Origin: Gigantopelta aegis
Taxonomy: Eukaryota > Mollusca > Gastropoda > Neomphalida > Peltospiridae
Direction of reading: 5' to 3'
DNA length: 64,000 nt
NCBI RefSeq assembly: GCF_016097555.1
Contig: NC_054707.1
Location: 43,596,873-43,660,872, forward strand
The translations under genes were made by a program, and so were the position numbers. Of the stretch, positions 10,301 to 62,409 are shown one piece after another (position 1 is the first letter of the stretch; each line of letters begins with the position of its first letter). A model generated the notes under the pieces. It was not told where the DNA came from, made no database searches, and saw nothing but the letters and a program-made list of their open reading frames with translations.

Positions 10301-13300
10301 CTGACAAATACGGGCTTGAGTCGAGGTCCAGTTTCTTCTTCCGAGTCGGAGTACTCTTCATACTCGGACGATTCCTCCTCACTGTCCCCATCAGACTTCT
10401 CCTCCTCCACACGTAGCACCTCCTGAAACAACAAAACACATCTTCATTACACCCGCTCTTTATAAAGCTCAGAGGTAGAGACGTATCTTCATTACACCGG
10501 CTCTTTATACAGCTCAGAGGTATAGACGTATCTTCATTATACCGGCTCTTTATATAGCTTAGAGGTAGAGACGTATCTTCATTACAGCCGCTCTTTATAC
10601 AGCTCAGAGGTAGAGACGTATCTTCATTATACCAGCTATTTATACAGCTCAGAGGTAGAGACGTATCTTCATTATACCAGCTCTTTATACAGCTCAGAGG
10701 TAGAGACGTATCTTCATTACACCAGCTCTTTATATAGCTCAGAGGTAGAGACGTATCTTCATTATACCAGCTCTTTATACAGCTCAGAGGTATAGACGTA
10801 TCTTCATTACACCGGCTCTTTATATAGCTCAGAGGTAGAGACGTGTCTTCATTACACCGGCTCTTTATACAGCTCAGAGGTAGAGACGTATCTTCATTAT
10901 ACCAGCTCTTTATATAGCTCAGAGGTAGAGACGTATCTTCATTACACCGGCTCTTTATACAGCTCAGAGGTATAGACGTATCTTCATTATACCGGCTCTT
11001 TATATAGCTCAGAGGTAGAGACGTATCTTCATTACACCGGCTCTTTATACAGCTCAGAGGTATAGACGTATCTTCGTATCTTCATTACACCAGCTCTTTA
11101 TACAGCTCAGAGGTAGAGACGTATCTTCATTATACCAGCTCTTTATACAGCTCAGAGGTAGAGACGTATCTTCATTATACCCGCTCTTTATATAGCTCAG
11201 AGGTAGAGACGTATCTTCATTATACCAGCTCTTTATACAGCTCAGAGGTAGAGACGTATCTTCATTACACCCGCTCTTTATACAGCTCAGAGGTAGAGAC
11301 GTATCTTCATTACACCAGCTCTTTATATAGCTCAGAGGTAGAGACGTATCTTCATTACACCAGCTCTTTATACAGCTCAGAGGTAGAGACGTATCTTCAT
11401 TACACCCGCTCTTTATACAGCTCAGAGGTAGAGACGTATCTTCATTATACCAGCTCTTTATACAGCTCAGAGGTAGAGACGTATCTTCATTACACCAGCT
11501 CTTTATACAGCTCAGAGGTAGAGACGTATCTTCATTACACCAGCTCTTTATACAGCTCAGAGGTAGAGACGTATCTTCATTACACCAGCTCTTTATATAG
11601 CTCAGAGGTAGAGACGTATCTTCATTATACCGGCTCTTTATATAGCTTAGAGGTAGAGACGTACCTTCATTACACCGGCTCTTTATATAGCTCAGAGGTA
11701 GAGATGGGATGGGATGGGAACTCTATTTACGTGCCCATATCCACATAGGTTCAGGCACGTCCACCCTGGACCTAGTCTCTGACTTCGCCAGTGACCAATT
11801 CCGGACCAGGAAGTCTCAGAGGTAGAGACATATCTTCATTACACCGGCTCTTTATATAGCTCAGAGGTAGAGACGTGTCTTCATTACACCGGCTCTTTAT
11901 ATAGCTCAGAGGTAGAGACATGTCTTCATTACACCGGCTCTTTATATAGCTCAGAGGTAGAGACGTGTCTTCATTACACCTGCTCTTTATACAGCTCAGA
12001 CGTAGAGAACTCACAACTGACCACAGCCTCTGATCTCAGGTATTTAACTCCTACTATTAAACAGGGACTTATGGCCTGGTGCTTATAAAACTTTTTAGAG
12101 TCTAAACTTGAGACTCTAATAGAGTCTGAGACATGAATGTCATGGCAACGCCATACAAATTGTATGCGTGTGACATCATTAGAGATTGAGTCTGGACTCT
12201 AAAAGTTTTATATGCACGGGCTCTGGAAAGCATACAGTTAAAGTTTGATTTCTTTAACGACATCACCCGAGCACACTGATTTATTGGATGTTAAACATTT
12301 GGTAATATAGTCTAAGAGAAAAACCCCGCTACATTCTTTATTAGTAGTAAGGGATCTTTTATATGCACCATCCAACAGACAGGATAGCACATACCATGGC
12401 CATTGTTATACCAGCCATGGTGCACTGACTAAAACAAGAAATAGCCCAATGGATCCACTGAAGGAGATTGATCCTAGACTGACCATGCATCAGGCGAGTT
12501 CTTTACAGCTTAGTGTTACACATAACGCTTAAATGAATCCCAGACTGATATCATGGATATTGTTTACACATGAACAAAGAAACAAATGGTCAACTCAATC
12601 ATAATCCTAGACCGATATCATGGAAATTGTTTACAGACGAACAGAGAAACAAATGGTCAACTCAAAACTAATCCTAGACTGATTTCATGGAAAATGTTTA
12701 CATATGAGCAGAGAAACAATAAGTCAACCTAAAACTAAAACACATCATAAGCTCAGTGTGAACAGATTCACACCAGTCTCACAATACCAGTTCATGTTGA
12801 CCAAAATGGTCGTTTACAGAGGTTGAGACTGCAGTCTGACTGTATTCATTTGTTTTGCTGTTAGACTGTAAGTAAATTGGATCATTACAAATCCTGATCC
12901 CTCACAATTCAATGTAAGTTAAGTATAAATCATCTAGCCCCCCACCCCACCCCACCCAGTGGATTCTCCCTGACTGGGATGACAACTTACTTCTTCCTCC
13001 TCCTGATCCTTGGTAATTCAATGTAAGTTAAGTATAAATCATCTAGCCCCCCCCCCCCCCCCCCCCCCCCCCACCCCACCCTGTGGATTCTCCCTGACTG
13101 GGATGGCAACTTACTTCTTCCTCCTCCTGATCCTTGGTAATTCAATGTAAAGTTTAAAATCATCTAATGCTAAATGAGAATATTAGAAGTAAAGATATAT
13201 ACAATGTTTTGAATAATAATCATGTAATACCAAAGGCACAAAAAAATATGCATCTAAGGTTTAGCATTTGATTGTTATATGTGGAAACAGTTCTATGTTA

Positions 13301-16300
13301 TACCCTTTAGATGTACAAAAGATACTACCTTGCAATGGTTTCAATACCGATTGCTCCATAGAATCCTAGATACTAATACCTTTCTGCATATGATTCATTA
13401 TGTAAATAAAAATAAAAGTAAATATGTATACAAATAAATGTAGTTTTTGTAAAAATGTTCCTAAAACCTTACATTTGTTTTATGATTGTAATAAAGTAAA
13501 ACATATGTGGAAAGAGTTGGAGAAATGGATATTTAACAAAACTGAAGTCAGACTTCCACTTAATAAACATACAGTTATGTTTGGTATGATAAATGGTGAG
13601 TTTAGCAATGTAGTTAACTGGATTTTAATCAATATAAAATATTACTTTTATAGTATGAAAATACTTAACAAGAGTCTTCATATTAATGTTATAAAAAACA
13701 TATTGCAAAATAAATTTCAAATAGAAAGATACATTTATTTTAAAAACTGTGAACATGACAAATTTAATTAATGCTGAGGAAAGTGGTTTAACCTTTTCAG
13801 TATTGACTAATAACATCAAAAACACCATCTTCTTTAAGTTTAACTATAGGTTAGGACCCTTTCCTTTGGTTTCTTTGCTTATTGCTTTTTATTTACAAAA
13901 ACACCATAACTTGTTTGCAAATACAATTCTAGATTTATCTCTTTTATGAATCTTACATCCACCACATCTACTCATAACTGCTTCTTCTCTATACGACATT
14001 AAGTGTGGATATTAACTGGTAGACACTATTTTGCTTCGCTTATTAAATTTTATTATTTTATTGTTTTTGAATTAGCCTGAACCCCATAAAGAAATTGTTT
14101 CTTTCCCCCCTCTGTCTTTTCTGTCTTTCTTTCCTTTTCTTCCCTATTTTTCTTTTCTTTTTTTATCTTTGACTCTCAGATCAAAATCATTTCAGATAAT
14201 TATGGGTGTACATATACATTAATAGGGTATGACTATGTTTTGAAAGTATATATTAAGTATTGGTATATGTAATATGAGTATACATATGTATGTATGTATG
14301 TATGTATGTAGGTGTGCATGTATGTATGTATGTATGTATGTATGCACTACGTATGTATAACTATATGTAAATATTATGAAATGTAAGACAATGATTCAAG
14401 GCACCCCAACCTTGACATTGCCCGTGATCTGGGGACAATAAATCATTTTTAAAAAAATCAAAAAAAATCATCTAGCCCCTCACCCCACCCTGTGGATTGT
14501 CCCTGACTGGGATGACAACTTACTTCTTCCTCCTCCTGATCCTTGGTAATTCAATGTAAGTTAAATATAAATCATCTAGCCCCCCACCCCACCCTGTGGA
14601 TTCTCCCTGACTGAGATGATGACTTACTTCTTCCTCCTCCTGATCCTTGGTAAGTCAATGTAAGTTAAGTATAAATCATCACCCACCCCCCACCCACCCC
14701 CCCCCCCCCACCCTGTGGATTCTCCCTGACTGAGATGATGACTTACTTCTTCCTCCTCCTGATCCTTGGTAATTCAATGTAAGTTAAGTATAAATCATCT
14801 AGCCCCCACCCCACCCTGTGGATTCTCCCTGACTGAGATGACAACTTACTTCTTCCTCCTCATGTCTTTTCTGAAGAGCTCGCTGACGAAGCATAACTCT
14901 CCTCCTCTCAATTTCCTGTCGTAAAGAGAAATTAAAATTAAACAGCCTCTGATATTTGCTAAATAAAGGTGTAAAAAAATATGTATAATAATTTAAAATT
15001 GTTTAAACAAGTACACGGTTCTGAATTATTTCTACATCAACCAAAAGAATAATAATTCTTTTTTAGCTTTTACACAATAAGAGATGGGTAATAGTGTTGT
15101 CTCATATGGAATCACTACATGTAAATCACACTCACCCTGCCCATTGATTTAGTCAATAGCTTTTTTTTACATAATACAAAGTGACTACAACATTTAATAT
15201 TTGGCTAATAATAAAAAAAAAAATTAATTAACCACTTTTTAATAATTTCCAGACATTACTCTACATATATTTCCAGTGTGAGGTTAAAAAAAAGTCTGAC
15301 TCTAACCTCTTCATCGAGCTCTTCCTCCTCGCTAGATTCTTCCTCATCTTTACCTTTGAACCGATCTTCTTCCTCAGACACCTCCTCAATAACCTCTGGC
15401 TCTATAACCTCTCGCCGGTGACGGGCCACTCTGAAAAAATACACACAAAACCCGGTCACAATATCCACTAACATTATATGTGCATTTTCATCCCCATGTC
15501 TTGGCTAACATTACTTGTCACCTGTGATGTGCCACCCAGAAAAACAGTTCATGCCTTACCCTATCACTTGTGAATATATGTCCTAAAACCAGGCCAGTGA
15601 GTACTGTTTAACACCACAGAACCCTCGCATCAACTGAATACACTGCTGTTTAATATCACAGAACCCTCGCATCAACTGAATACACTGCTGTTTAACACCA
15701 CAGAACACTCGCATCAACTGAATACACTGCTGTTTAACACCACAGAACACCCGCATCAACTGAATACACTGCTGTTTAACACCACAGAACACCCGCATCA
15801 ACTGAATACACTGCTCTTTAACACCACAGAACACCCGCATCAACTGAATACACTGCTGTTTAACACCACAGAACACCCGCATCAACTGAATACACTGCCG
15901 TTTAACACCACAGAACACTCGCATCAACTGAATACACTGCCGTTTAACACCACAGAACACCCGCATCAACTGAATACACTGCCGTTTAACACCACAGAAC
16001 ACCCGCATCAACTGAATACACTGCCGTTTAACACCACAGAACACCTGCATCAACTGAATACACTGCCGTTTAACACCACAGAACACCCGCATCAACTGAA
16101 TACACTGCCGTTTAACACCACAGAACACCCGCATCAACTGAATACACTGCCGTTTAACACCACAGAACACTCGCATCAACTGAATACACTGCCGTTTAAC
16201 ACCACAGAACCATCGCATCAACTGAATACACTGCTGTTTAACTTTGTTTAAAATCAGGCGGGACGTAGCCCAGTGGTAAAGCTCTCGCTTGATGCATGGT

Positions 16301-19300: not shown

Positions 19301-21992
19301 GGTGGAGGGAATGTCATTATGTGGGGAGCCATCTCATACGCCGGCAGAAGTGAACTTGTGTTCGTACAAGGCAACCCGACAGCTGTACACTACAGGGATG
19401 AAATTCTTCGCTGTCACATGCTTCCCATTGTGGATCAACAGAGAGAACTCTTTCAGCAGGACAATACCAGGCCGCATACAGCACGTGTAACAATTAATTT
19501 CCTACAGAATAAGAACATTAATTTGCTGCCATGGCCATCAAGATCGCCAGATCTCAACCCCATTGAACATCTATGGGACGAACTGGACAAACGTGTACGC
19601 CAGTGTGACCAGGAGCCTCAGATGCTTCCGCAACTGTCACATGCACTGCAGGAAGAATGGGCTAGGATTCCACGTGCCCGGATTCAGAGACTTATTCAGT
19701 CTATGCCAAGGAGATGTCGCGCAGTGATTGCTGCTGCTGGTGGCCACACAAGGTACTGATTTCAGCGCACTTGTACGACGCTGTTTGGTGACGAAAACGC
19801 CTTCACTGCCGTCAGTCCATAGCAAGAACATTGTCACATACTCATGTCAAATTTGACTGATACGATCATAAATAACAACATTATACCACTTTGTATTAAA
19901 GAGATAATTCCATGAATATTTTGCCTATGCGTTTCTTTTTTGACAGAGTATATATACATACATACACACACACACACAAACACACACAGAGGAAAAAAAA
20001 AAGGCTCTTTAATGAATTGTATTTCTTAAATTTTCAAGAAAGCTTTTTTGAAATTTAATAATAAAATACATTCACCAAATTCCACTTAATCTGGAGAAAT
20101 GGCAAATCACCGATTAAATTCACTGTATATATATTCACTGTATATATCGAACAAGCAGTTTATGTGATCATCTTTATTCCAATTTTGGACATAAGTTTTG
20201 TGAAAACACTTTTCAGTTGTAAATTATGTGTTCTGCATGTATATTTGACTGTGTGTGATACTTATGGACTGTATGTGATTTTTCAGTTTTACATTATGTG
20301 TTTTGCATGTATATTTGACTGTGTGCGATACTTATGGACTGTATGTGATTTTTCAGTTTTCACCTGTCTTCGTCTTCATCATCGTCGCTGTCGACAGCTC
20401 TGCGGTCGCGGAGTCTGCGCAGCCGTCTGTCAGCCACGTCGCCGTCAGCCTCCTCATCCTCCACTGCCCTCTCGGTCGCCACAGCCTTCTTCTGCATCTC
20501 AAACGGCTCATCATCCTCATCACTATCACTCTCCGGGGCAAACTCCGGGCGCTTCCCCGTCACGTACCGGCTCACCTTCACCTTCTCCATAGTCAAGTCA
20601 CCTGCAAGGGAATAATTAAAGTTTAAAGACTGTTTTGCTTAACTACACCACTAGAGCACATTGATTTATATATCATTGGCTACTGGTAATTTCGACTATA
20701 GTCTTAGAGAAGAAACCCGCTAGTTTTCCATTGGTAGCAAGGGATCTTTTATATGCACCATCCCACTGACAGGATAGCCCTTGATATACCAGTCGTGGCA
20801 CACTGGCTGGAACGAGAAATAGCCCAATGTGCCCACCAATGGGGATCGATCCTAGACCAACCGTGCATCTAGCGAGCACTTTACCACGTCCTGCCCCTAT
20901 GGAATAATGTGCACGCAAAAACAGACCCTGCAGTTGCTCATGGCAATCCGTAATGCTGTGGAGATTGCCATGGAATTTTTAATTCTCCACGACAGCTTTT
21001 TAGCTGTGGACTATATTCAAAACAAATTTCACAGCGTTAATTGCATGAGTGCTTGCCGGTGCTTGCTGATTCTCATTCAAGAAGAATTTGCAGAAGAAAA
21101 AAAACTGCTTAAGAAACCCCAAAACATTTAACCACAATTCATTTCTTTTAATATTTAAATAAATTTTGCAAAAAATAAAAAATAAAAAATAAACTCACTA
21201 CTGAAAAACATTATTACATGTATGATGTACATGTATGTATACATTTTGTTGAGATGACAGAAGTGGAATTTAACTATGTGTTTCATGTTCAGGTGTAGTT
21301 GGTCAGGGCTTCAGATTGCACCAAAACGTTAAAAGTTTGTTTTGTTTAACAACACCACTATAGCACATTGATTTATTAATCATCAACTATTAGATGTCAA
21401 ACATTAGGTAATTCTGACATATAGTCTTAGAGAGGAAACCTGCTACATTTTTCAGTTAGTAGCAAGGGATCTTTTATATTTACCAACATACCACAGCTTT
21501 TGATATACCAGTCGTGGTGCACTTGCTGGAACGAGAAATAGCCCGCTGACAGGGATCGATCCTAGACCGACCGTGTAACAAGCGAGCACTTTACCACTGG
21601 GCTACGACCCGCCCCAAGATTGCATCACTGTCAAGGCAATTAAATGTTGTGCCATAAATACATATATGCCAAATAAACTACAGACCAGCTGACCTCAAAA
21701 TATTTAACCTCAAAACCACTGAAATGTTAAGGTTAATTAGATTAAAATAACTTGAAATGCATTTCTGAATATTGATAACTCTACAGCAGAGCTCTGTTAA
21801 TGACAGTACTGAACTAAAACAACCTTCCTGCACTCAGAAATGATAAAAGTCCCTGTTGTGCCAAAATCAGTGAGTCCTAAAGCCTCGTTGGTACATGTAT
21901 ATGCAAAGATGAGCGATCTTACCTTTTTCATTGCGGATAGTGATAGCACCAGCCGTCGACTGGATAGGAACTTTCAACATGGGTAGCGCCAT
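1192..21992 (-). CDS. MFAP1: MFAP1, spliceosomal microfibrillar-associated protein 1 (whole coding gene, 10 exons)
   Basis: In human spliceosomes MFAP1 is a nuclear component of the B complex, acting with PRP38 and SNU23 around tri-snRNP activation. Ten coding exons in transcript order are 21992-21923, 20601-20364, 15430-15307, 14915-14850, 10422-10298, 5851-5743, 4251-4091, 3506-3347, 2430-2341 and 1371-1192. All introns are GT-AG, all phases agree, and they give 440 residues, against 439 in human. Recognisable blocks are [16 protein letters not shown] near the N terminus, [10 protein letters not shown] before an [10 protein letters not shown] coiled-coil-like region (about 207-240), [19 protein letters not shown], the highly conserved [20 protein letters not shown] (about 327-350) and [15 protein letters not shown] near the C terminus. 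The middle is strongly acidic and the protein is mostly charged. It is divergently placed to PKMYT1. Introns are swollen by minisatellites and transposons; three arrays touch its splice sites. Family assignment is from remembered human sequence and is very secure. Confidence 0.96.
2341..2430 (-). CDS. MFAP1: MFAP1 exon 9
   Basis: Residues 352-381, [20 protein letters not shown] and then [10 protein letters not shown]. It matches human DEDEEVYKRDFSAPTLEDHF. Exactly 30 codons, phase 0 on both sides, with acceptor CCTGCAG and donor ATGCAG then GTAACA. Confidence 0.95.
2566..2830 (+). mobile_element. tRNA-headed SINE, third family
   Basis: The head has a tRNA-like internal promoter (cggtggagtcgtggttaagc and a ggttcgcatcc-like B box). 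The body contains cactgtcctggacagacagc and gtgtgtgcccaggacagc, and the tail ends in an A-rich ataagttgaaatgaaatga. It lies in MFAP1 intron 8, opposite to the gene's strand. The body differs from the two common SINE families of this window. Confidence 0.7.
2866..2930 (-). mobile_element. tRNA-like SINE head fragment
   Basis: On the minus strand it has an A-box-like tagcccagtggtagagc and a degraded B box (gcaggttctatt). It is too decayed to fold as a tRNA and has no SINE body, so it is read as a SINE head remnant. Confidence 0.45.
3347..3506 (-). CDS. MFAP1: MFAP1 exon 8
   Basis: Residues 299-351, [20 protein letters not shown] and on through [20 protein letters not shown] to AFFI. This is the most conserved block of the family. 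The acceptor is AAAAAG and the donor is TTCATT then GTAAGA. Residue 351 is Ile where human has Met. Confidence 0.95.
3815..3895. repeat. (CT)n low-complexity tract
   Basis: A pyrimidine-rich run of ctttct, ctccct and ctctct units in MFAP1 intron 7. On the transcribed strand it is a purine tract, so it is not a polypyrimidine tract for splicing. Confidence 0.85.
4091..4251 (-). CDS. MFAP1: MFAP1 exon 7
   Basis: Residues 245-297, [20 protein letters not shown], then [20 protein letters not shown] and [10 protein letters not shown]. It is nearly identical to human in the [18 protein letters not shown] block. The acceptor is GACACAG and the donor is AAAA then GTAAGC in phase 2. Confidence 0.95.
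4482..4864 (-). mobile_element. SINE family B, near full length
   Basis: Read on the minus strand, the tRNA-like head (cctcggtggcgtcgtggtta) lies at the high-coordinate end. It is followed by catgggatttttaatcc, the shared central domain (aagggatcttttat read on the plus strand), and the tail cgtaaataaaatgtgttgag with terminal ttctttctttc. It sits in the intron between MFAP1 exons 7 and 6. Confidence 0.8.
5330..5550 (+). mobile_element. SINE family A, headless copy
   Basis: Contains the body from gtgcaccacaattgatatat through agatcccttgctactaatgg to the tail aatgtgctctattggtgtcg and ttaaacaaaacaaac. The tRNA head is missing or unrecognisable. Confidence 0.75.
5743..5851 (-). CDS. MFAP1: MFAP1 exon 6
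   Basis: Residues 209-244, [18 protein letters not shown] onward to RRKQTLK. Human has KDRVTVQEREAEALKQKELE here. The acceptor is TGTGTAG; its polypyrimidine tract, AG and the first 13 exon bases form the core of the large array that fills the intron upstream (5852-9250). The donor is CTTAAG then GTACAC. Confidence 0.94.
5852..9250. repeat. 46-53 bp minisatellite carrying a splice acceptor (MFAP1 intron 5)
   Basis: Roughly 65-70 copies of a unit with core ggtctcgtctacacacagag, aaaaacattaaca and cagtctcacaaa. On the transcribed minus strand each good copy reads a pyrimidine tract (TTTTTCTCTGTGTGTAG) followed by ACGAGACCGCGTG, which is the acceptor and first 13 bases of MFAP1 exon 6. The array touches the exon without a gap, so the exon boundary is the last unit of the array. 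Blocks of about 1.1-1.2 kb recur (for example near 5881, 6961 and 8201), giving a higher-order period. Many copies have decayed to cactgtctc or catggtctc, altering the exon-like part but rarely the AG. Confidence 0.93.
9251..10297. other. MFAP1 intron 5 remainder, possible decayed transposon
   Basis: Inverted words occur at 9468-9500 (tcgaaaactgta, twice) and near 9800 and 9990 (tacggttttcgat), which suggests a small terminal-inverted-repeat element of roughly 530 bp. A 61-codon minus-strand ORF (9684-9499) opens [10 protein letters not shown] and has no confident match. Nothing else is supported. Confidence 0.3.
10298..10422 (-). CDS. MFAP1: MFAP1 exon 5
   Basis: Residues 167-207, [13 protein letters not shown] and then an acidic/serine run [12 protein letters not shown], ending PRLKPVFVR with two bases of the next lysine codon. 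It matches human SEYEEYTDSEDEMEPRLKPV. The acceptor is GTTTCAG and the donor is AGAAA then GTTGGT, a weak GTTG donor. Confidence 0.93.
10433..12003. repeat. 45-bp minisatellite (MFAP1 intron 4)
   Basis: About 33 copies of a 45-bp unit (acgtatcttcattacacc, ggctctttatac and agctcagaggtagag). It starts about ten bases intronic of the exon 5 acceptor but does not contain exon sequence. Copies vary mainly at ccg/cag and ata/aca positions. It is interrupted at about 11703-11815. Confidence 0.95.
11703..11815. mobile_element. Short repeat fragment interrupting the 45-bp array
   Basis: About 110 bp unlike the array: gggatgggatgggaactcta, ttacgtgcccat, gttcaggcacgtccaccctg and gaccaattccggaccagg. I recognise this word set as a dispersed molluscan repeat. 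It splits one array unit, so it arrived after the array had begun to expand. Confidence 0.5.
12074..12222. mobile_element. Fold-back MITE
   Basis: Long imperfect inverted repeats: gcttataaaactttttagag at the left and, inverted, ctctaaaagttttatatgc at the right, with a further inverted pair around atacaaattgtat in the centre. No coding capacity. Lies in MFAP1 intron 4. Confidence 0.7.
12237..12510 (-). mobile_element. SINE family A
   Basis: Minus-strand copy: the tail end (ttaacgacatcacccgagca) is at the left, the core agggatcttttatatgcacc in the middle, and a degraded tRNA head (gattgatcctagactgacc) at the right. Confidence 0.75.
13167..14463 (+). mobile_element. 5'-truncated LINE (L1/Tx1-like 3' end)
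   Basis: An ORF of 115 codons (13424-13771) carries the C-terminal zinc-knuckle-like segment of a non-LTR reverse transcriptase protein: [17 protein letters not shown] followed by [11 protein letters not shown]. In-frame sequence upstream reads [18 protein letters not shown], typical of L1/Tx1-like proteins, and is separated from it by stop codons, so the copy is dead. The 3' end is an AATAAA and an A-rich tail. A direct repeat aaatcatcta flanks both ends, and the target is the donor-array unit. Confidence 0.7.
14281..14344. repeat. (TATG)n microsatellite
   Basis: About fifteen tatg units with one interruption (aggtgtgc), inside the 3' untranslated part of the LINE fragment. Confidence 0.9.
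14850..14915 (-). CDS. MFAP1: MFAP1 exon 4 (66-nt micro-exon)
   Basis: Residues 145-166, [20 protein letters not shown] ending in EE. Human has EIERRRGMMRQRAQERKNEE at this point. The acceptor is CGACAG and the donor is GAAGAA then GTAAGT. The last 12 exon bases plus the donor are repeated downstream in the next intron. Confidence 0.93.
15307..15430 (-). CDS. MFAP1: MFAP1 exon 3
   Basis: Residues 104-144, reading [20 protein letters not shown] and then a highly acidic tail ending in ELDEE. Human MFAP1 has LARHRKIVEPEVVGE here. The acceptor is TTTTTTCAG and the donor is GAAGAG then GTTAGA. Confidence 0.94.
15597..16243. repeat. 42-bp minisatellite (MFAP1 intron 2)
   Basis: About 15 tandem copies of a 42-bp unit (tgtttaacaccacagaacac then ccgcatcaactgaatacactgc split over two words). 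Because 42 is a multiple of three, all frames stay open and a long false ORF runs through it on the minus strand. It lies about 170 bp upstream of the exon 3 acceptor and contains no exon sequence. Confidence 0.95.
16256..16488 (+). mobile_element. SINE family A
   Basis: The tRNA-like head is well preserved: gcgggacgtagcccagtgg with A box, then ggatcaatccccgtcagtg as B box region. The body has gggctatttctc and tgctatcctgtctgtggg, and the tail is aatgtgctgtagtggtgtgg. It starts directly after the 42-bp array. Confidence 0.85.
17061..18377. mobile_element. hAT-like non-autonomous transposon with 8-bp target duplication
   Basis: Ends are CAGACCCTGTCAACC at the left and GGTTGACAGGTCTG at the right, an inverted pair. 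The flanks carry a perfect 8-bp direct repeat GTGCCCAG (17053-17060 and 18378-18385). Sub-terminal repeats with tctcctgc and tctcccgg words follow. No transposase is visible. The CAG...CTG ends and 8-bp duplication fit the hAT superfamily. Confidence 0.75.
18446..19948 (+). mobile_element. Tc1/mariner (DD34E) transposon, inactive
   Basis: About 1.5 kb between TA dinucleotides, with inverted ends sharing gtcaaaaaag. The transposase remains as two blocks in different frames. The N-terminal paired-like block (18759-19127, helix-turn-helix and [17 protein letters not shown]) is followed by the catalytic part (about 19190-19759) with [19 protein letters not shown] and [11 protein letters not shown]; 34 residues separate the second D from the E. 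At least two stop codons (near 19125 and 19227) and one frameshift between 19227 and 19319 disable it. It lies in MFAP1 intron 2, opposite to the gene. Confidence 0.88.
20212..20362. repeat. 70-bp duplication ending at the MFAP1 exon 2 donor
   Basis: Two full copies (starting about 20212 and 20282) and the start of a third (20352) share ttcagtttt, attatgtgttttgcatg and actgtatgtgatttttcag. The third start coincides with the exon 2 donor on the minus strand. The copies have GTAAAACTG where the real donor has GTGAAAACTG. Confidence 0.8.
20364..20601 (-). CDS. MFAP1: MFAP1 exon 2
   Basis: Residues 25-102, beginning [19 protein letters not shown]. It contains the acidic DSDEDDE run and [10 protein letters not shown], and ends DSDDDEDED. 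The acceptor is TTGCAG and the donor is GACAG then GTGAAA in phase 2. The intron side of the donor borders a 70-bp repeat. Confidence 0.94.
20618..20897 (-). mobile_element. SINE family A
   Basis: Minus-strand copy with tail (ccactagagcacattgattt), core (agggatcttttatatgcacc) and tRNA head (ggatcgatcctagaccaacc, then ttaccacgtcctgcccc). In MFAP1 intron 1, just upstream of exon 2 in transcript terms. Confidence 0.85.
21331..21615 (-). mobile_element. SINE family A
   Basis: Minus-strand copy with ttgtttaacaacaccacta, the core agggatcttttatat, and the head ending gggctacgacccgcccc. In MFAP1 intron 1. Confidence 0.85.
21923..21992 (-). CDS. MFAP1: MFAP1 exon 1 (start codon)
   Basis: Residues 1-23 plus one base. 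The ATG is at 21992-21990 and the peptide begins [17 protein letters not shown] and ends NEKG, matching the family N terminus ([18 protein letters not shown] in human). The donor follows base 21923 (AAAAG then GTAAGA). The leader upstream may contain another intron: an AAAG acceptor-like site lies about 50 bases upstream. Confidence 0.93.
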
Positions 21993-41900: not shown

Positions 41901-44900
41901 AATAAAGACTTTAAAAAGTAATTTCATATTTGATGTCATTTATGAATGTAAACTTGAACATTGTATTTTAAGCAGGAGTATTGTGCACCGTTCCCTAGTT
42001 TAATGATGTACCTTGTTTAAATTTCAGTTTGGGGATGACTATTTTGGAACTGGCCAGTGACCTTGACCTGCCGCGCGGTGGCGAAGGGTGGCACATCCTC
42101 CGTAGGGGTCAAATACCAGAGGAATTTCTCAGAAGTACGTCTTTCATAACCTGGGCCCATATTTTCGAAGCCATCTTAGCCTGCGAAATCGTAAAATCAT
42201 CGTAAGTTATGACGTCACTATGGCGTGTGCTGTAGTGACATCACAACCTACAGCGGTTTTACGATTTCGTAGCGCTAAAATGGCTTCGAAAATATGGGCC
42301 CAGGTATCCATTTCACGAACAAAAACTAACATTTCTACCTTGTAGTAGTAAAGGAGACCAAGTGTTATAATTTAGTCAACATAAATATTACGTTTAAGGG
42401 GCATTCTCATTATGACTTGTCGCATGCGATTTAATCGTACTATGGGAAAACCTAATTGGGAACAATTTTAGTCTTATACGTTCCGATTTTTGTAAGGCCA
42501 TCAAGTCTGCAACTAATCACATAATGAGAATGCCCCTTTAGCAAGACGAGGCACTTAATGTTCTTTGTGAATAAAACCGAAAGATTTATCTATAGTTGTG
42601 AATATCTTTGTGAATATATGCATTTATTGTTTAATGGTGTTGAAAATTTGTTAGTGAGAATAAGTGGGAAAAATTCCTGTAACACTGTTTTTGACACTTA
42701 CATTTTATAAATGTATTAAACTTTCAGAATTAATTTGCTTTATTAATTTTTTCTCCATTACACTGTTGAGTAATATTAAAGGTTAAGATACATGTATTGC
42801 CAAATACTTGACATTTTAATGATAGCTTATATCATTTTATATCATTGTACTTATAATTTGTAGAAAAGTCATTTGACTTAAAGTACGTAATTCAGCAAAT
42901 GATGGACCCAGACCCAAGAAGCCGACCGACTGTCGACCAGCTGATGGCGTTTCCGTGTGTGCGCAAAGTCTGGAAACGAAGAGTGCGTGAATACATGATC
43001 AAGAATGCTGTGAGTGTATAAAACTGTACAGAGTTACATCGTGCTGAATACTGAGATTTTTGTCAATCATTAAAATGGCAAAGTTAAAATTTTTAAGTGT
43101 GGTTTCGTGAAATAAGGGTCAAAGTGAAAACTGAACTGATGGAGGATAATACTTCACAAAAACGTGTGTCTGAGATAACGGAGTTACAGTGATCGGGTTA
43201 CAGTGCACCACACAGTTTAAAGGTTACCATCAGTATTGCTGTATTGATTTGGAAGTTTTCTTACTCTTGCAGAGACCCCCAAACAGTGCACCACGACTGG
43301 TATATCAAAGGCTGTGGTATGTGCCATCCTGTAAGGGGTGTATATAAAAGATACATTGCTGCAAATGGTAAAAATGTAGCAAGTTTTTGTCTAGGACAAC
43401 AAGTAAAAAAAATACCAAAAGTTTAACATCCAATAGCCGATGATTAATAAATTAATATGCTCTGGTGGTGTCGTTAAACAAAACAAACTTTTTAACTAGA
43501 GGAGCATATTTCACTCTATAGTGCACTTTCTCACCCTCATCTTGGCTGGGTTTACTACACTGAACAGTAACATTGATATGTATTGTTTTATTTGACAGAT
43601 ATCTCGTGTCCGATCAACGTTATGGTCTATAGTGCACTTTCTCACCCTCATCTTGTCTGGGTTTACTACACTGGACAGTAACATTGATATGTATTGTGTT
43701 ATTTGACAGATATCTCAGGTCCGATCAACGTTATGGTCTATAGTGCACTTTCTCACCCTCATCTTGTCTGGGTTTACTACACTGGACAGTAACATTGATA
43801 TGTATTGTTTTATTTGACAGATATCTCGTGTCCGATCAACGTTATGGTCTATAGTGCACTTTCTCACCCTCATCTTGTCTGGGTTTACTACACTGGACTA
43901 ACATTGATATGTATTGTTTTATTTGACAGATATCTCGTGTCTGATCAACGTTATGGTCTATAGTGCACTTTCTCACCCTCATCTTGTCTAGGTTTACTAC
44001 ACTGGACAGTAACATTGATATGTATTGTTTTATTTGACAGATATCTCGTGTCCGATCAACGTTATGGTCTATAGTGCACTTTCTCACCCTCATCTTGTCT
44101 GGGTTTACTACACTGGACTAACATTGAATTTGATATGTATTGTTTTATTTGACAGATATCTCGTGTCCGATCAACGTTATGGTCTATAGTGCACTTTCTC
44201 ACCCTCATCTTGTCTGGGTTTACTACACTGGACTAACATTGAATTTGATATGTATTGTTTTATTTGACAGATATCTCGTGTCCGATCAACGTTATGGTCT
44301 ATAGTGCACTTTCTCACCCTCATCTTGTCTGGGTTTACTACACTGGACTAACATTGATATGTATTGTTTTATTTGACAGATATCTCGTGTCTGATCAACG
44401 TTATGGTCTATAGTGCACTTTCTCACCCTCATCTTGTCTGGGTTTACTACACTGGACAGTAACATTGATATATATTGTTTTATTTGACAGATATCTCGTG
44501 TCCAATCAACGTTATGGTCTATAGTGCACTTTCTCACCCTCATCTTGTCTGGGTTTACTACACTGGGTAGTAACATTGATATGTATTGTTTTATTTGACA
44601 GATATCTCGTGTGTGATCAACGTTATGGTCTATAGTGCACTTTCTCAATTATCTTGTCTGGGTTTACTACACTGGACAGTAACATTGATATGTATTGTTT
44701 TATTTGACAGATATGTCGTGTCCGATCAACGTTATGGTCTATAGTGCACTTTCTCACCCTCATCTTGTATGGGTTTACTACACTGGACAGTAACATTGAT
44801 ATGTATTGTTTTATTTGACAGATATCTCGTGTCCGATCAACGTTATGGTCTATAGTGCACTTTCTCACCCTCATCTTGTCTGGGTTTACTACACTGGACT

Positions 44901-47900
44901 AACATTGATATGTATTGTTTTATTTGACAGATATCTCGTGTCCGATCAACGTTATGGTCTATAGTGCACTTTCTCACCCTCATCTTGTCTGGGTTTACTA
45001 CACTGGACAGTAACATTGATATGTATTGTTTTATTTGACAGATATCTCGTGTCCAATCAACGTTATGGTCTATAGTGCACTTTCTCACCCTCATCTTGTC
45101 TGGGTTTACTACACTGGGTAGTAACATTGATATGTATAGTTTTATTTGACAGATATCTCGTGTGTGATCAACGTTATGGTCTATAGTGCACTTTCTCAAT
45201 TATCTTGTCTGGGTTTACTACACTGGACAGTAACATTGATATGTATTGTTTTATTTGACAGATATGTCGTGTCCGATCAACGTTATGGTCTATAGTGCAC
45301 TTTCTCACCCTCATCTTGTTTGGGTTTACTACACTGGACAGTAACATTGATATGTATTGTTTTATTTGACAGATATCTCGTGTCCGATCAACGTTATGGT
45401 CTATAGTGCACTTTCTCACCCTCATCTTGTCTGGGTTTACTACACTGGACAGTAACATTGATATGTATTGTTTTATTTGACAGATATCTCGTGTCCGATC
45501 AACGTTATGGTCTATAGTGCACTTTCTCACCCTCGTCTTGTCTGGGTTTACTACACTGGACAGTAACATTGATATGTATTGTTTTATTTGACAGATATCT
45601 CGTGTCCGATCAACGTTATGGTCTATAGTGCACTTTCTCACCCTCGTCTTGTCTGGGTTTACTACACTGGACAGTAACATTAATATGTATTGTTTTATTT
45701 GACAGATATCTCAGGTCCGATCAACGTTATGGTCTATAGTGCACTTTATCACCCTCATCTTGGCTGTATTCCTGTATCCGGTGACGTGCTGGAAAAGACG
45801 AAGTGTTTCTCGCATGTGTCTGCCTAGCGACACCAGTCACTCCACAACCTCCGGGGATCACAGTATTTCTGATGGTAGTCTTGTCACTTCATGTATTGTC
45901 AGTAAAACTTGCACTCAAATGACATCTTCACAAAGTTGCATCAGATGTAAATAATTAAATTTCAGCTACATTCGTTACGATTTAACGTCGTCCCATTGGT
46001 CCAGCCGTAGCACTGCAATTTTGTTCATTTTTCATTGAACGTTAAAAAAAAAGAACCAACGTCATATGAAATATGAACTTTTAGTGTTATTATTAGTATG
46101 TTTCAAATGTAATTATAAGTAACAATCCAAAAAGTGGTAAAAAAAACCCACAAATCTACAAGACTGCAATCTACAAGTCACCTCTTTCGATTTGCTGTCA
46201 CATTCAATATTTCACTAACAAATAGTTGGCCACCAGTAATTTTTTACCCATTCATGACATCAGTATACCTACCGATGTAACTTTATTCAAGTTGTAAAGT
46301 GTAAACAAAACTAATAGTAGTAATACTAATAGTAGTACAGTGAAAGCATAATATGCAAAACGATATCCAGTCTTTTATTAGTTTTAAAGGTTGCATGTCA
46401 CCATTTACATTTGTAAAACTTTAAATATGTAAGTTATTAATTTAATTTATAAAATATCACATAAATTGCAAAAAACACACAAAAAAACAACAATTTAGGA
46501 ACACAATATCATGAAATAGATAAATTAACAAAGTACCTACACTGAACAATTACTCATAACTTAGGTCGTTTTAATGGAAACAATTATTTAAAAATTTTAA
46601 TAGGTAACTTTATTCGAAACTGATGAAAATTATTTACATATATTTTTCTATGCAAACCATAAAGTATGCCCAATGAACCTATCTGTTGTGTAAATTGACA
46701 AGTTGATTAAACATGAATTTTTCACCATGACCAGTGAGTTATCAAATCAACTAGCCCTATGGCAAGTGAATTTTATAAAATTCGTGAACCCCTGCAGTAT
46801 ATAGGGATTAGGTGGGCATATCAGTTAAAATATAATTGTATTTTTATTATTTTAACTTTTGTTTCCCTACCAGATGATTGCTTTGACGATGATGTCAGTA
46901 TCACAAATAATTCTGTTGGAGTTCCACTGGATACGTCCTCGTCTTCTGACGATTTTGCCATACCATTGTAAGTATACTGGTATATCCAAATCCATCTCAT
47001 AACAATGGTGAATGCAGTTAACTAGTAGTTCCATTATTTTGCATAAGTGAACTAAGTTGATTTGTCTGTAAAAATTAGATTTTTATAAAACAGCAGTAAA
47101 ATAGTACTGCAAGGTTGAAAATTGGCAGGTGCCATAATCAGACACGACAACAGACTTTTACAAAGATTGGTCACTGGGCGACTTACTTTTAGTAAAATGT
47201 ATCTTTTCAATATAAATTACATTCAATAATGAAAATGCTTGAAGCAATTTATTGAGGCTAGTGAACTTTGGTAATGTCCAGTAACAATTTGTTTTAACTG
47301 GCCTCTGATGACTTGTCATAATGTTTAAGTGTGGATTCAACAAAGACTGGAGTTTTAAATGTGTGACAGTGGAGTACAAACTGCATGGATCCGTTCAGAT
47401 TTTACTAGAAAGATTGATAACTAGGTCTAGATGTTGGATGTAACAATGACTGGTGTCAGGCAGTAGCAAGAGGCCCTGCTTCTAACACTACGACCAATAG
47501 GCGGTAGCAAGAGGCACTGCTTCTAACACTACGACCAATAGGCGGTAGCAAGAGGCCCTGCTTCTAACACTACGACCAATAGGCGGTAGCAAGAGGCCCT
47601 GCTTCTAACACTACGACCAATAGGCGGCAGCAAGAGGCCCTGCTTCTAACACTACGACCAATAGGCAGCAGCAAGAGGCCCTGCTTCTAACACTTGGATT
47701 TGGTTTCACGGCTCAAACATCGAGTGCCACTATGGTACTAACTAAACAACCGTTAACTCCAACCAGGACCCAAACGCCCGTGTTAAATACTGGCAAATAA
47801 TGTTCATACATGTTTATATATTTTGCCGTCAGTGAGGAGCTTTACTGATGGCAGTAATTTGTATCCAGTGGCACAAAAGTGCCTTGGGTGATGCCCCTGA

Positions 47901-50900
47901 CCGACAGCAGTTTATATTTCACCGACGGTAATTGCTGCCGCTACGTTAAAGCCCTGTGGTTGACATGAAGGTTTTATTTTCAGCAAACCTCCACCAAGAC
48001 GAGCCTTCACGACTCCTATTATAAGAAAACGGCCACCAAATTTGCCACTTCCCATGAGTTCGTCGCCCGTTCTACCAGGAATCAACCTGTAAGTAATAGG
48101 TTTTTACCTGCCGTAATATTGGTTTCTCATCGCATCAGGTTACTGTGGGGCTGTTTAACATTGTTGTTGTATATGAAGGTCATCAAGATTACAAAAGTAT
48201 TTTTAGTTCTATAAATTATTATCAGTGACAAGGATGTGTCAACCTCTTCTTTTTTTTGTCTTGGATTTTGTGTCGTCATAGATATTCAAACGTGTGTTAA
48301 TCAGCTGTGTATGACCTTTTAATTGCATTGCAGGTTTTAACTATATGAATTTAATTTGTTTGATTTTAGTAGAAAATGTAGTCCGGAACCCATACTTGAC
48401 AGCAGTATCGATAGTCTGACCGATCACTCTCCGAGTCAGATTATCTTCACAGACGACGAAGCTAAGAACAACATTGAACCGAAAAATCTACTTGGGGTAC
48501 GATAGTTCGTTATATTCTGTTGTTGTAGCCAGTTTTTGTACATTTTTCGTACACATCATACTTCATCATCAGTTCTGTTGTAAACTACTAGCAACTCATT
48601 TTGTCATTAGAATGATTAAAATGTCTTTAAAATGTGAAGTTAAAAAACCCCAAACAAAAAACCCCCAAATAACTACATAATATATTGATCAAAGCTTGGA
48701 ATATACTATATTGCTAGAAATATAGGGCTAAATTAACGAAGCCTGTTTTTTTTTAAATGCAGGTATTTAAGCATTGTAAACGTGTGTAGCTACATTGTTT
48801 AAACAATATTTATTTCACAAAAGAAATGGATTGGCAAACAGGCCATTGGCCTATATTAAAGCCGCACGCCCTAGTTCCATCCAGCGAAAATAAATTATAA
48901 TTTGGTTAATCTACAAATCTGTAACACACTTAGATCACATTTTTATCAAATGGAGTGAAAAAGCAGGTTTTATATCGATAAATACCATGGGAATCCCCAT
49001 GTCCCAATTGCTTGAAATAATTTTGAAAGTTAGTATTCTGATGTCACCGGTAGATGTCGCTCGAAGCACAACAATGCCTACGTCACAACAAATTTCACAG
49101 AGTGCGCACAGACTTGGGGTGCGTTCCTTTCACCTCTCCTGGACATGTTCCAACTGTTCTGTCCTGGTTGTATCCCCTCTCCAGATATCGTATGACTTAG
49201 CAAAATTATTGGTTTTAAGGGTTTGTAACATTTTGTATTGAGATACTTACTTGTCTGAACTTTATTGTTACTGAAAATGTTCACAAACTGTGAAGAAAAA
49301 TCTCACAAATGAACAACAAGCAAACGACAACAAATCGGATGTTGATTGCGCGAACCGTGCACGAGAAAACGAACCGAACCAAAATGATAACGGTCACGTG
49401 GTATACCAACGTCTGTGACATTGAAATGGGAATATCCCCTCTAAAAATAGATTAGAAATACGAAAAATCCATTTTGTGGTATTACAAACACCAGGATTAC
49501 CAAAAAACACTTCAGATGAATGGAAATGTATATTCTAAATAATAAACGGTAAGTAAAGTGCAATTTTATTTGTGAAAAAATGGGTTTAATAGCGAAAAAC
49601 AATGGCGTAATGGTTAACAACTAGGGCGTGTCCCTTTAATGCCTATCCACGCATACTTTGTTACATACAATTTATAATCTACACATATATCAGTTGATAT
49701 GTTCTTCAGAGAATTAGAAACAATTACATAATTTGCACTCAAACATAAAAACAAGTCTTAAAAGACCATTAAATTAATATACTTGTCCATGCGTACACAT
49801 ACCCACGTACATAAATATACCAGATTTCCTAAGGTTAACTTACATCAGTGATTCTCGCCCACTGCCCACAGTACAGCAGCCAAACTTCCAAGTGACAATG
49901 TGATATAGGATAAATGGTTTTAAAAAGTTAAAACGTGAAGCGTTTGACAATTCGAAAAAGTTATGAATAGATTCTGCTATTCGTAAATTAAGGTCCAGAG
50001 GGTAATCATTATTACCATATAGCACTGTATGGAGATCAAAACCACCATTATAAAAATACATTGTTGTACAAATGTAATGTATCTTCATATGGGTGCCCAC
50101 AACTACAAATGGAATTATCATAAATATGTCTTGTATATCTAGGAGCATTGAGGTCACTGCATTCTAAACGAAGTCTACAATGAATTATTTTATTTAAGCG
50201 TGATCCGAATTCTAAAAATGTCTTAGTTAACCCATTTATCAGCGGGGATATACAATTTTTAAATTTTCAAAAAGATTCTATTTGTCTTATATTTTCATCA
50301 ATATTATTCCACTCACGAACTACTAAGGGTAAAAACGATTTCCTGTATAATTCTGTTCTAGCTTGAATATATTGCAATTGGTCAGCATTACGGACTGAGT
50401 GATTTTCAGAAACTGTTGGGTACCAACGATGATAAATACTGTGGAGTTATGCCGTTAACCATTTTATAAAAGATACATATTTTATGAAATACACTATGTT
50501 GGTGTAAAGGACTGAATCCAGTTTCGCTATAAATTTGTTCATGGCTTGTTCCCCTAACAGCACCACATATTGTAAGGAGGGCGTCCAACTGAAGTGTTTC
50601 TAATATATTTGCTTGGGCTTCTATACAATTATCCCAAGTAGTCAAACACTGGCAAAATAACAGATTTATATAATGTTTCCAGTGTTTTCCTTTTTAGACG
50701 ATACTTTAAACTACGAGACAATTTATCATTGGGCTAACTTTATAAACAAGCTGTTCTATGTAGCAATGCCACTGGCCGTCCATTTGGAATGTAAGACCAA
50801 GATGTTTATGATTGTTTACATCAGTTATTTTTGAATCCCCTAAGAATATATCTGGTTGGATCTGTGTGTGGATCTTTCTAGAAAATGTGATTGATTCTGT

Positions 50901-59990: not shown

Positions 59991-60376
59991 TCAGTGTTTC
60001 ACATTTTGCGCACAGGGAATATTGCGCGCATAGTCACAATTTTTCACACCTTCGTTGTAAAACAGTCCCTCTTGGCAGGTGTTGGCGAACACTGTTCCAG
60101 ACAAACAGACGAAGAATCCCGTTGGAGGGCAGCCGGAGTTGTAGTCGGCGTATATGGCAAACGTCGTCGTCGAGTCGCACTGGGCGGCTCTGCTGCATGT
60201 AACCTCGGCGCTGCAAGTGTCCGTGCCTTCGTCGTAAACTTTCCCAGACGGACAGTGGCCTGTCTCGATCTCACCATACCTGCACGAGAAGAAGTTCCGT
60301 GTTGGGCAGCCGAGGGAATAATCAGGGTAGAATGCTCTTTCCAGGTCTCTCGGGCACTGAAACGACCTGGTCATCG
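59991..60376 (-). CDS. Chitin-binding protein exon 3 (stop codon)
   Basis: Residues 82-208: MTRSFQCPRDLERAFYPDYS begins domain 2, DYNSGCPPTGFFVCLSGTVF lies in domain 3, and the end is CAQNVKH. Acceptor TCTTACAG. An 86-bp duplication (60403-60488) repeats the acceptor and the first 60 exon bases on the intron side. Confidence 0.92.
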
Positions 60377-62409
60377 CTGTAAGAGAAATAATGATCAATC
60401 AGAATAATCAGTGTAGAATGCTCATTCCAGGTCTCTCGGATACTGAAACGACCTGGTCATCGCTGTAAGAGAAATAATGATCAATCAGAGATAAGTTGTT
60501 TTTGTATTTATACCCACTTATTCAAGACTTGAAGTCCATTGTAACTCGTCTTAGTCTGACCAGGAGAAAAACTAATAAGTTCATGTCATCACAGCTATAC
60601 TTATAGCTGTCCGGTGCTAGTTTTGATTTAGTAAACTAGACCGGTAGTGGCAGTCCTCTCTTGTTGTGCAAAAGGGATATAATCTCCAGAAAAGGATCTC
60701 CTCGGGAGTGGCTGTCCTCTTACAGACAAGGCACTAGATAAGGGATTCATGGAAGCATCCACTATTTTGTGAAATGCCCATTCGACTCTGCATTGTGCAG
60801 AGATACGGCCCTGGGTCCCGTTCCACGAAGCGATCTTAGCCCTAAGATCACCGTAACAGCACAGCTAACATATGCACTTACGGTGATCCTAGCGCTAAGA
60901 TCGCTTTGTGGAACGGGACCCTGCTCATCACGATTTTGTGGTTCAGGTAAATAGCTAATGAATAAAAAGAACAGAGAGGAAAAAAGTAAAATGAGCACTG
61001 TTCGAGAATTAGGTATTTCTGTGTCTAACATTTATTACAGATGATTCATGACAATATCCCATTATGTATGCAACACACCTACTCCCGTCAATGGGGGTAT
61101 AACTAGTTGTAGTTATGTGGTTCAGTATCGCTGGGAAACAAAAGTTGAATGATATGACGTCAAATAGTCGTTATTCGCTAAGGACATAAACTTGATATGA
61201 TACAGACGTCGGCTTATTATCCTGTGATACTTACAGGCGACACATTTGTCGAAGGCGTCCACTGTGCATCTCTGTCTGGTGGAATTCAGCGCCATACCCT
61301 CCGGACATAGCACGGTCTTGTAGAGAATTCCGCTGTAGCAGGCGTGGAACTGTCCGCACTGTGAGCCCGCCATCATTACCATGCCAGTTGTGTCCACGCA
61401 CGGGTTGTTCTGTCCACGGACAGACAACAACTGAAGCAGCACAGCTGAAGATAATATATATAAGTCAAATCTGTGTTAAGAAGTCATTGAAAGCCAGGGT
61501 CTGAAAGGCCTATTAAATGAAAATAACTTACAAAGACAATATGGCCCCTCAAAATTATGTATTTCCGGGAACCCGACCAAACCTAGAAATATAAGAGATG
61601 ACCCTAACACAAAGTTCAGTATATTGTTGGTTCTTTTTTCTCTTTTTTTCATCAATACGTAGGTGAAACATAACATTTCATCTGGGATGAATGTATTAAA
61701 ATAATAATAATATGAATAATAACAATATTAAACAAATAAAATAATAATAAATAAAAGAACAAACCTACCTACCTTACCTAAAAAAAAATTCGGCACGTTC
61801 TCCGGAAGCAAACATTTTTCTTTAGGCCTAATTGATTTCTGTATTAATATCTCTGCTGTCGTTCAAATCAATTACAATAAGTTTTCGAACGGTTAATATA
61901 AACTTAACATTTATAAATTTGGTCTTATCCACTAAAGCTCGCTTGCCTTAATCAACAATTAAAGCCACCCATTTCTGTCCTGGAGAGGCAACCCATGATG
62001 CTGGACTAGCCGTGTCCCTAGGGCACCATGAACTGAATCAGAATTCAATATAGGCACGTCAACTTGATCAATTACCATAAAAGTAAAAGTATCTTGTCAT
62101 TATACATTATCAATTTTCGTTTTTAAATTCAATGCGTTTCCGATTGTCTTGGCGTTTGTAATAGTTCGGATTTCATTTTACGCACATACGGAATACAAAA
62201 TATACGTATCTTGGGAAGGGTCAGTCAGGGTATCTTGGGAAGGGTATTTGAATCCTCCCCGCTTTCCCCTCTTAACACCGATTATTTTTAGGAGTACGAT
62301 TTTCTCCTTGGCAGTAGTGCGATTTATCGCAGAGGACTGAATGTTTTCAAAACCGAAAGTCAGCCAGTTACAACTTACCTAGAAAACAGCAGACGAACTT
62401 CCCCTTCAT
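59991..62409 (-). CDS. Secreted three-domain chitin-binding (CBM14/peritrophin-A) protein
   Basis: Exons 62409-62379, 61444-61235 and 60376-59991, all GT-AG and in phase, give 208 aa. A signal peptide (MKGKFVCCFLAVLLQLLSVR, likely cleaved after Gly 21) is split by intron 1. Three six-cysteine chitin-binding type-2 domains follow at about 26-78, 88-141 and 147-202; domains 2 and 3 show the usual C-x-GC-(x)-FF-C-C-C-C layout, while domain 1 is more divergent. Such proteins bind chitin in extracellular matrices; in molluscs they occur in shell matrix, gut lining and radula-related tissue, so the tissue is not decided here. There is no catalytic domain or mucin linker. A second copy of the exon 3 acceptor lies 86 bp upstream. 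Confidence 0.9.
60317..60488 (-). repeat. 86-bp tandem duplication across the exon 3 acceptor
   Basis: Copy 1 (60317-60402) holds the genuine acceptor and 60 exon bases; copy 2 (60403-60488) lies wholly in intron 2. They differ at a few positions. Read as an exon, copy 2 changes the first cysteine of domain 2 to tyrosine and soon meets a stop codon, so it is a non-functional decoy. Confidence 0.9.
60577..60791 (-). repeat. Dispersed repeat, copy 2
   Basis: Inverted relative of 31423-31640 (gctagttttgatttagtaaa, tggcagtcctctc, ccactattttgtgaaatgcc). Lies in intron 2 of the chitin-binding gene. Confidence 0.7.
60813..60921. mobile_element. Fold-back MITE
   Basis: Arms gggtcccgttccacgaagcg and, inverted, cgctttgtggaacgggaccc, continued by atcttagccctaagatcacc. 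Related to the half element near 53765. Confidence 0.8.
61235..61444 (-). CDS. Chitin-binding protein exon 2
   Basis: Residues 12-80: the rest of the signal peptide (VLLQLLSVRG), then QNNPCVDTTG and domain 1 ending VDAFDKC. Acceptor ATCTTCAG, donor GCCT then GTAAGT in phase 1. Confidence 0.92.
61445..62378 (-). other. Chitin-binding gene intron 1
   Basis: No repeat or gene recognised apart from a short aataataat-rich stretch near 61700-61755. Confidence 0.5.
62379..62409 (-). CDS. Chitin-binding protein exon 1 (start codon)
   Basis: Residues 1-10, MKGKFVCCFL, plus one base. Donor CTAG then GTAAGT. Joined to exon 2 it completes a typical signal peptide, which is the main reason for choosing it. 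No clear TATA box upstream. Confidence 0.82.

Follow-up and report, generated by a model that had tools for sequence, protein, structure and literature searches.

Within the window analysed here, a 64,000-nt stretch of the genome of the gastropod Gigantopelta aegis, exon 10 of the gene for the kinase PKMYT1 (Myt1) is preceded by nineteen decoy copies of its own splice acceptor and exon start, as a first-pass annotation of this DNA had claimed. Judged by its sequence, the tandem array formed by these copies is a mirage, a name in use for minisatellite-like tandem duplications of exon–intron boundaries. It is likely that the array is a neutral passenger of the gene, probably variable in length, and that only the last acceptor, at 45706, is used while the decoys are spliced out.

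Anatomy of the acceptor array of PKMYT1

The identity of the gene given earlier was borne out by the product of the spliced model, a kinase for which all six PDB sequences at E 1e-40 or better were PKMYT1 (best 8.6e-89) and which matched Pfam Pkinase at 2.8e-48. On the forward strand, the model joins exon 9 (42864–43009; donor GCT/GTGAGT, the slash marking the splice junction; phase 0) to the authentic exon 10 (45706–45874; donor ATG/GTAGTC), which continues the kinase reading frame and encodes the membrane helix, a hydrophobic stretch of 19 residues with a Kyte-Doolittle mean of 2.12. Three more exons lie downstream, at 46874–46967, at 47984–48088 and, the last one, from 48370 onwards.

Tandem Repeats Finder returned the region 43515–45766 as a single array with a period of 111, 20.3 copies and 95% matches. 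When the acceptors were located by the motif TTTGACAG/ATAT, 20 were found, the true one before 45706 and 19 decoys with exon starts at 43599, 43710, 43821, 43930, 44041, 44156, 44271, 44380, 44491, 44602, 44711, 44822, 44931, 45042, 45153, 45262, 45373, 45484 and 45595. Because these acceptors are evenly spaced, there is no space for an additional broken copy. The array begins with a leading partial unit (43515–43598) made of exon-like sequence (TCTATAG...TTGGCTG) and the intron end, without a preceding acceptor copy, followed by 19 full decoy units (43599–45705), which start like exon 10 and run up to and including the acceptor of the copy that follows. The repeated unit thus consists of the intron end, TTTGACAG and about 61 nt of exon 10, as proposed before, and spans the exon–intron boundary; the exon-like part is 61 nt except in units 10 and 15, where it is 59 nt. 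The unit length, given earlier as 107–118 bp, was found to be 109, 111 or 115 bp. The AG is intact in all 19 decoys, and the true boundary stands at the end of the array, with exon 10 present once, after the last unit.

Several units are identical (3, 7 and 12; 5 and 6), and units 9–11 (44491–44821) recur as units 14–16 (45042–45372) with 0–1 difference, forming a higher-order repeat across 44491–45372 with a spacing of five units. The identical units and the recurring block indicate that the array grew by block duplication. The same duplications, in the one copy of the locus seen, suggest that the length of the array may vary between haplotypes or cells. Between the decoy consensus and the true exon 10 there are differences at 4 of 61 sites; they fall in three codons, by inspection changing the amino acid in each, and this divergence points to an edge copy that has been exempt from the homogenisation of the interior, as expected under concerted evolution of a mirage.

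The genome assembly (1.149 Gb, 5216 contigs) was searched with a 225-base query from the array end, using a search that omits simple repeats and very common words, and all 21 matches fell at one spot on contig C9; since the query matched its own locus only, an origin from a dispersed element was rejected. Rfam gave no matches at gathering scores. The reverse-strand reading frames over the array, up to 178 amino acids long, were taken as by-products of the repeat.

Because tandem arrays assemble poorly, the array was also considered as an artefact of the assembly. A PGBD5 mirage raised a similar doubt (PMC3902484), and in a draft genome the BflGb6 mirage had been assembled wrongly (PMC3087553). 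The units of the PKMYT1 array are told apart by private changes and ordered block duplications, the array occupies a single locus within a contig of 84.9 Mb, and similar arrays occur elsewhere in the genome. An artefact is thus highly improbable, although the copy number may nevertheless be off.

Reading frames and donor-like sites of the decoys

The earlier proposal that use of any decoy would keep the hydrophobic helix in the frame of the exon and then run into a stop, the TGA of the following unit, was followed by reading exon 9 into each decoy. The hydrophobic stretch was retained in 15 of the 19 units, the exceptions being units 4, 8, 10 and 15, which have a TGA at codon 5 (stop at +12). 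The stop of the next unit was reached in 10 units (at +105), whereas units 3, 5, 6, 7 and 12 stopped at +78 and the four units named above at +12. A stop within a decoy would be premature because the last PKMYT1 exon begins only at 48370. The prediction that decoy use meets an early stop, upstream of three further introns, stood for all 19 acceptors as well as for the cassettes described below.

It was possible in principle that such transcripts make a stable short Myt1 with the membrane helix in place but without the cyclin-binding tail, in line with the 15 units that retain the hydrophobic stretch. The two decoy products that occur most often reached, however, a best 19-residue Kyte-Doolittle mean of 1.52, lower than the 2.12 of the true helix, and the frames are unconserved between units; the products include one ending ...GFTTLD. 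Decay of these transcripts would be expected because the stop precedes three introns. We therefore regard a stable short Myt1 as hardly credible. Conserved coding by the decoys was rejected as well, given the stops, the frameshift and the amino-acid changes among the units.

The donor-like site GTAACA, previously described for most units, is present in 14 of 19, and the remaining five read GGACTAACA at this place. Together with the acceptor it would delimit a cassette, which has the proposed frame-shifting length of 79 nt in 12 of the 14 GTAACA units; in the other two, units 10 and 15, it measures 77 nt. Among the combinations tried (unit 13, units 13–14 and units 13–15 only), inclusion of one 79-nt cassette led to a stop within exon 10, and inclusion of two or three to an earlier stop. 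By inspection, the GTAACA/GGACTAACA stretch sits about 30 nt upstream of the following acceptor. A branch site would be expected at this distance, and CTAAC is presumably closer to the branch consensus, which is an impression from the sequence. It is likewise an impression that ATTAAT occurs upstream of the true acceptor only (1 of 20), the others having ATTGAT in its place, except for those after units 5 and 6, which have an insertion.

Choice between the decoys and the last acceptor

The probable course of events can be put as follows. Tandem duplication and unequal exchange would have enlarged a segment spanning the intron 9/exon 10 junction into a minisatellite. Under exon definition, acceptor and donor would be paired across the exon, and the acceptor nearest to the real donor and backed by a full exon would be favoured, so that 45706 would be chosen and the 19 decoys removed with the intron lariat, which would cost little. 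The first-pass annotation had allowed for two outcomes, an array that is a sink for the splicing machinery and tunes Myt1 dose, and one that is silent because the last acceptor wins. By analogy and from the sequence, the silent option appears the better supported of the two because of the lancelet mirages, the distal choice in beta-globin substrates, the unconserved frames and the recurrence of the structure at unrelated exons.

The lancelet globin genes carry tandem duplications of this kind, named mirages after an earlier report on Adh3; the BflGb6 mirage has six and three units on two haplotypes, RT-PCR (reverse transcription followed by polymerase chain reaction) suggested that regular splicing is not disturbed, and a model of intron gain was proposed (PMC3087553). 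A later report added the PGBD5 mirage and cited the Adh and troponin C mirages as generating no aberrant mRNAs (PMC3902484). When beta-globin substrates carried duplicated 3' splice sites and a proximal exon of 14, 55 or 205 nt, the distal site was used exclusively (PMC5389562). These substrates resemble the PKMYT1 array in having identical acceptors with a short exon stretch after the first, and differ from it in being artificial and having two sites, as compared with twenty sites in a natural gene.

Several observations weigh against silent decoys. Splice sites were scored with a small position weight matrix (PWM) built on the 20 donors and 21 acceptors of the three gene models of the window. 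The score of the true acceptor, 5.95, was shared by 16 of 19 decoy acceptors and equalled or exceeded by 17; the ninth decoy reached 8.46, and the second and fifteenth scored 4.74 and 4.76. The decoy donor ACA/GTAACA scored 4.71 as compared with 3.0 for the own donor of exon 10, ATG/GTAGTC. Site strength thus fails to explain why the decoys would be ignored, because most of their acceptors score as high as the true one or higher, and their donor scores higher. Mirage copies could act as cryptic sites (PMC3087553), and 66% of the human intron modifications by boundary repeats also show a transcript in which the exon retains the repeat (PMC2812944).

The same scores, along with the early stop met from every decoy acceptor and from the tried cassettes (units 13–15), would suit an array that works as a splicing sink or a bank of poison exons, in which partial use of decoys or of the 79-nt cassettes, followed by decay, would let the array length set the Myt1 dose. 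The units do have the anatomy of poison exons, with an acceptor, a donor-like site and a stop or frameshift on inclusion. Furthermore, duplication of a strong 3' splice site led to ATP-independent binding of a second U2AF35, and splicing was inefficient in two-site substrates that were weaker (PMC5389562). A bank of cassettes should, however, have kept its cassette sites, and the donor-like site is gone in 5 of 19 units, although the AG is kept in all 19; four of 19 units are also without the reading frame, and the published mirages were reported to splice normally. The same type of array recurs at unrelated exons of the genome, as described below, which makes a dose device specific to PKMYT1 unlikely. 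Taken together, we consider a sink improbable and exclusive use of 45706, with the decoys spliced out, the likely outcome.

Relation to known boundary repeats

The PKMYT1 array appears to belong to the known kind, the mirages, and to extend it from lancelets to a mollusc. As in the lancelet mirages (Adh3, troponin C, BflGb6, BflGb9 and PGBD5), boundary copies lie in tandem on the acceptor or the donor side, many keep the AG or GT, and the interior is homogenised while the edge copies are exempt (PMC3087553; PMC3902484). Unlike them, the mirages described here are from a mollusc genome, have 19 and about 65 decoys at PKMYT1 and MFAP1 exon 6, as compared with the six and three units of BflGb6, and affect 5 of 58 sampled exons. 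The number of decoys (19 in PKMYT1 and about 65 in MFAP1), the frequency in sampled exons and the clade are also what apparently sets the array apart from an ordinary minisatellite. A literature search found no mollusc mirage, the search being thin and naming gastropods in a single query.

In human paralogs, tandem repeats at exon–intron boundaries can form novel introns (PMC2812944). Growth of a minisatellite at a boundary, able to create or shift introns, is common to both systems; the human repeats concern elongation of exons or introns in recent paralogs and segmental duplications, whereas the PKMYT1 array brings decoy acceptors to a single-locus gene.

Near-perfect decoy sites by the dozen, at several exons of one animal, amount to a natural experiment in splice-site choice, for which pairing across the exon predicts use of the exon-proximal site and pairing across the intron predicts use of the outermost decoy. 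Young mirages of this kind are also offered as cases for the proposed route from a mirage to a new intron. The minisatellite of IFI6 (6-16) has a repeat unit with splice donors, and these donors are used; it shares a splice-site-bearing unit with the PKMYT1 array, on the donor side there and on the acceptor side here.

Other mirages in the window and at sampled exons of the genome

Three more mirages were found in the window, all on the reverse strand. The largest precedes exon 6 of a gene that we take to be MFAP1 from its exon-by-exon similarity to human MFAP1. This array (5839–9250) has about 66 copies of 52 bp, with about 65 decoys, and its unit, ...TTTTTCTCTGTGTGTAG/ACGAGACCGCGTG, combines the intron end with the start of exon 6; a gapless scan found the AG in 53 of 66 copies including the true one, and it was lost in 13 of 65 decoys. 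The donor of exon 4 of the same gene, GAGGAGGAAGAA/GTAAGT, is followed by three tandem copies (GAGGAAGAA/GTAAGT) in the region 14465–14861. At 60316–60494, the acceptor and start of an exon with a chitin-binding (CBM_14) domain match, TCTCTTACAG/CGATGACC, are duplicated once (86 bp × 2), giving one decoy.

Two further arrays next to MFAP1 sites on the reverse strand were not accepted as mirages since the site is not clearly repeated in them: one of 45 bp × 35 (10440–12008), 18 bp from an acceptor, and one of 70 bp × 2.2 (20210–20360), 4 bp from a donor. An array of 41 bp × 5.8 (47458–47694) lies inside a PKMYT1 intron, at least 290 bp from modelled splice sites.

For the rest of the genome, 40 of 136 kinase matches were chosen by us regardless of repeats; they were at most about 600 bp long, lay on contigs C1–C14 and were taken roughly in score order, with a few matches passed over and with some of the sampled exons belonging to one gene. 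Clear mirages were present at 4 of the 40 exons (95% interval 3–24%). The exon L064 has mirages at both ends where, besides the true sites, the acceptor is copied nine times upstream and the donor 16 times downstream, while L073 has four copies, two of them worn, L076 has 13 and L077 has 12. The donor copies of L064 extend to the edge of the analysed stretch. Among 18 chaperonin exons, sampled out of 64 matches from four places, one (L088) showed an acceptor mirage with two decoys. Outside the window, mirages were thus present at 5 of 58 exons sampled without regard to repeats; the arrays at L050, L065, L071, L078 and L091 were not counted as mirages.

Two further observations concern the assembly. 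The stretch C6:42726858-42730848 (L012–L013) is a nuclear copy of mitochondrial cox3-nad3-nad2-cox1, in this order (frames named by eye), with long open frames in the invertebrate mitochondrial code; it is perhaps recent or a misplaced piece of the assembly. This gene order agrees with gastropods and chitons and disagrees with lancelets, and a SINE of the window likewise has a molluscan look. Many kinase matches fell on small contigs such as C666, C776 and C1387, some as nearly a whole domain in one frame, which may mean that the assembly contains DNA of another organism.

Retention of splice signals in the decoys

When the eight acceptor arrays were pooled, the AG was retained in 107 of 125 decoy copies, the motif scans being biased towards intact copies. 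By array, it was kept in 19 of 19 copies for PKMYT1, 52 of 65 for MFAP1, 8 of 9 for L064, 2 of 4 for L073, 12 of 13 for L076, 11 of 12 for L077, the single copy for CBM_14 and 2 of 2 for L088. The two donor arrays had GT in 19 of 19 decoys found, of which the three of MFAP1 were found via GTAAGT itself. Within the PKMYT1 array, variation affected 3 of the 20 columns at the acceptor, 11 of the 61 in the exon-like part and 9 of the 30 in the middle of the intron. Neither purging nor preservation of decoy acceptors was thus seen in the eight acceptor arrays and the column variability of PKMYT1. Decoys that selection neither keeps nor removes fit rarely used sites, without being proof of them.

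Placement of arrays relative to splice junctions

The positions of arrays were compared with random placement for the window, with 42 modelled splice sites (one of them, MFAP1 3502, approximate and without AG), and for the kinase loci, 96,040 bp in total. Arrays of period at least 20 cover 14.6% of the former and 10.0% of the latter. In the window, which had itself been chosen for one of these arrays and for which the tolerances were set after the data were seen, 6 of the 9 arrays of period at least 40 ended within 65 bp of a site whereas random placement gave 1.31 (P 0.00025, 1 of 4000 placements); narrowing the distance to 25 bp left 4 of 9, with 0.57 expected (P 0.0025). With periods down to 20 included, 15 arrays in all, the values were 6 against 1.93 at 65 bp (P 0.008) and 4 against 0.95 at 25 bp (P 0.012).

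These results, and those for the kinase loci at 25-bp tolerance (7 of 17 against 3.21 for period at least 40, P 0.013; 10 of 37 against 5.34 for all arrays, P 0.023), would agree with mirages arising from a mechanism directed at splice junctions, such as one tied to transcription or splicing, rather than by random growth of minisatellites. Arrays that contain a junction were, however, without clear excess. In the window they numbered 4 of 9 for the longer periods, where 2.28 were expected (P 0.15), and 4 of 15 overall, where 2.42 were expected (P 0.18). At the kinase loci, the edge of the exon match was overlapped by 5 of 17 arrays against 2.63 (P 0.07) and by 6 of 37 against 4.05 (P 0.18), and with a tolerance of 10 bp the expectations were 2.86 (P 0.11) and 4.56 (P 0.28) for the same counts. 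A process directed at junctions is thus unlikely. Still more doubtful is the wider idea that a sizeable share of exons adjoin junction-linked arrays, of up to about 65 copies, which load splicing factors, with array length tuning the speed of splicing and the dose of numerous genes, including PKMYT1. In the genome sample, mirages were about twice as frequent as random placement of arrays would give, without clear significance; minisatellites abound in the genome, and mirages are enriched in it modestly at most.

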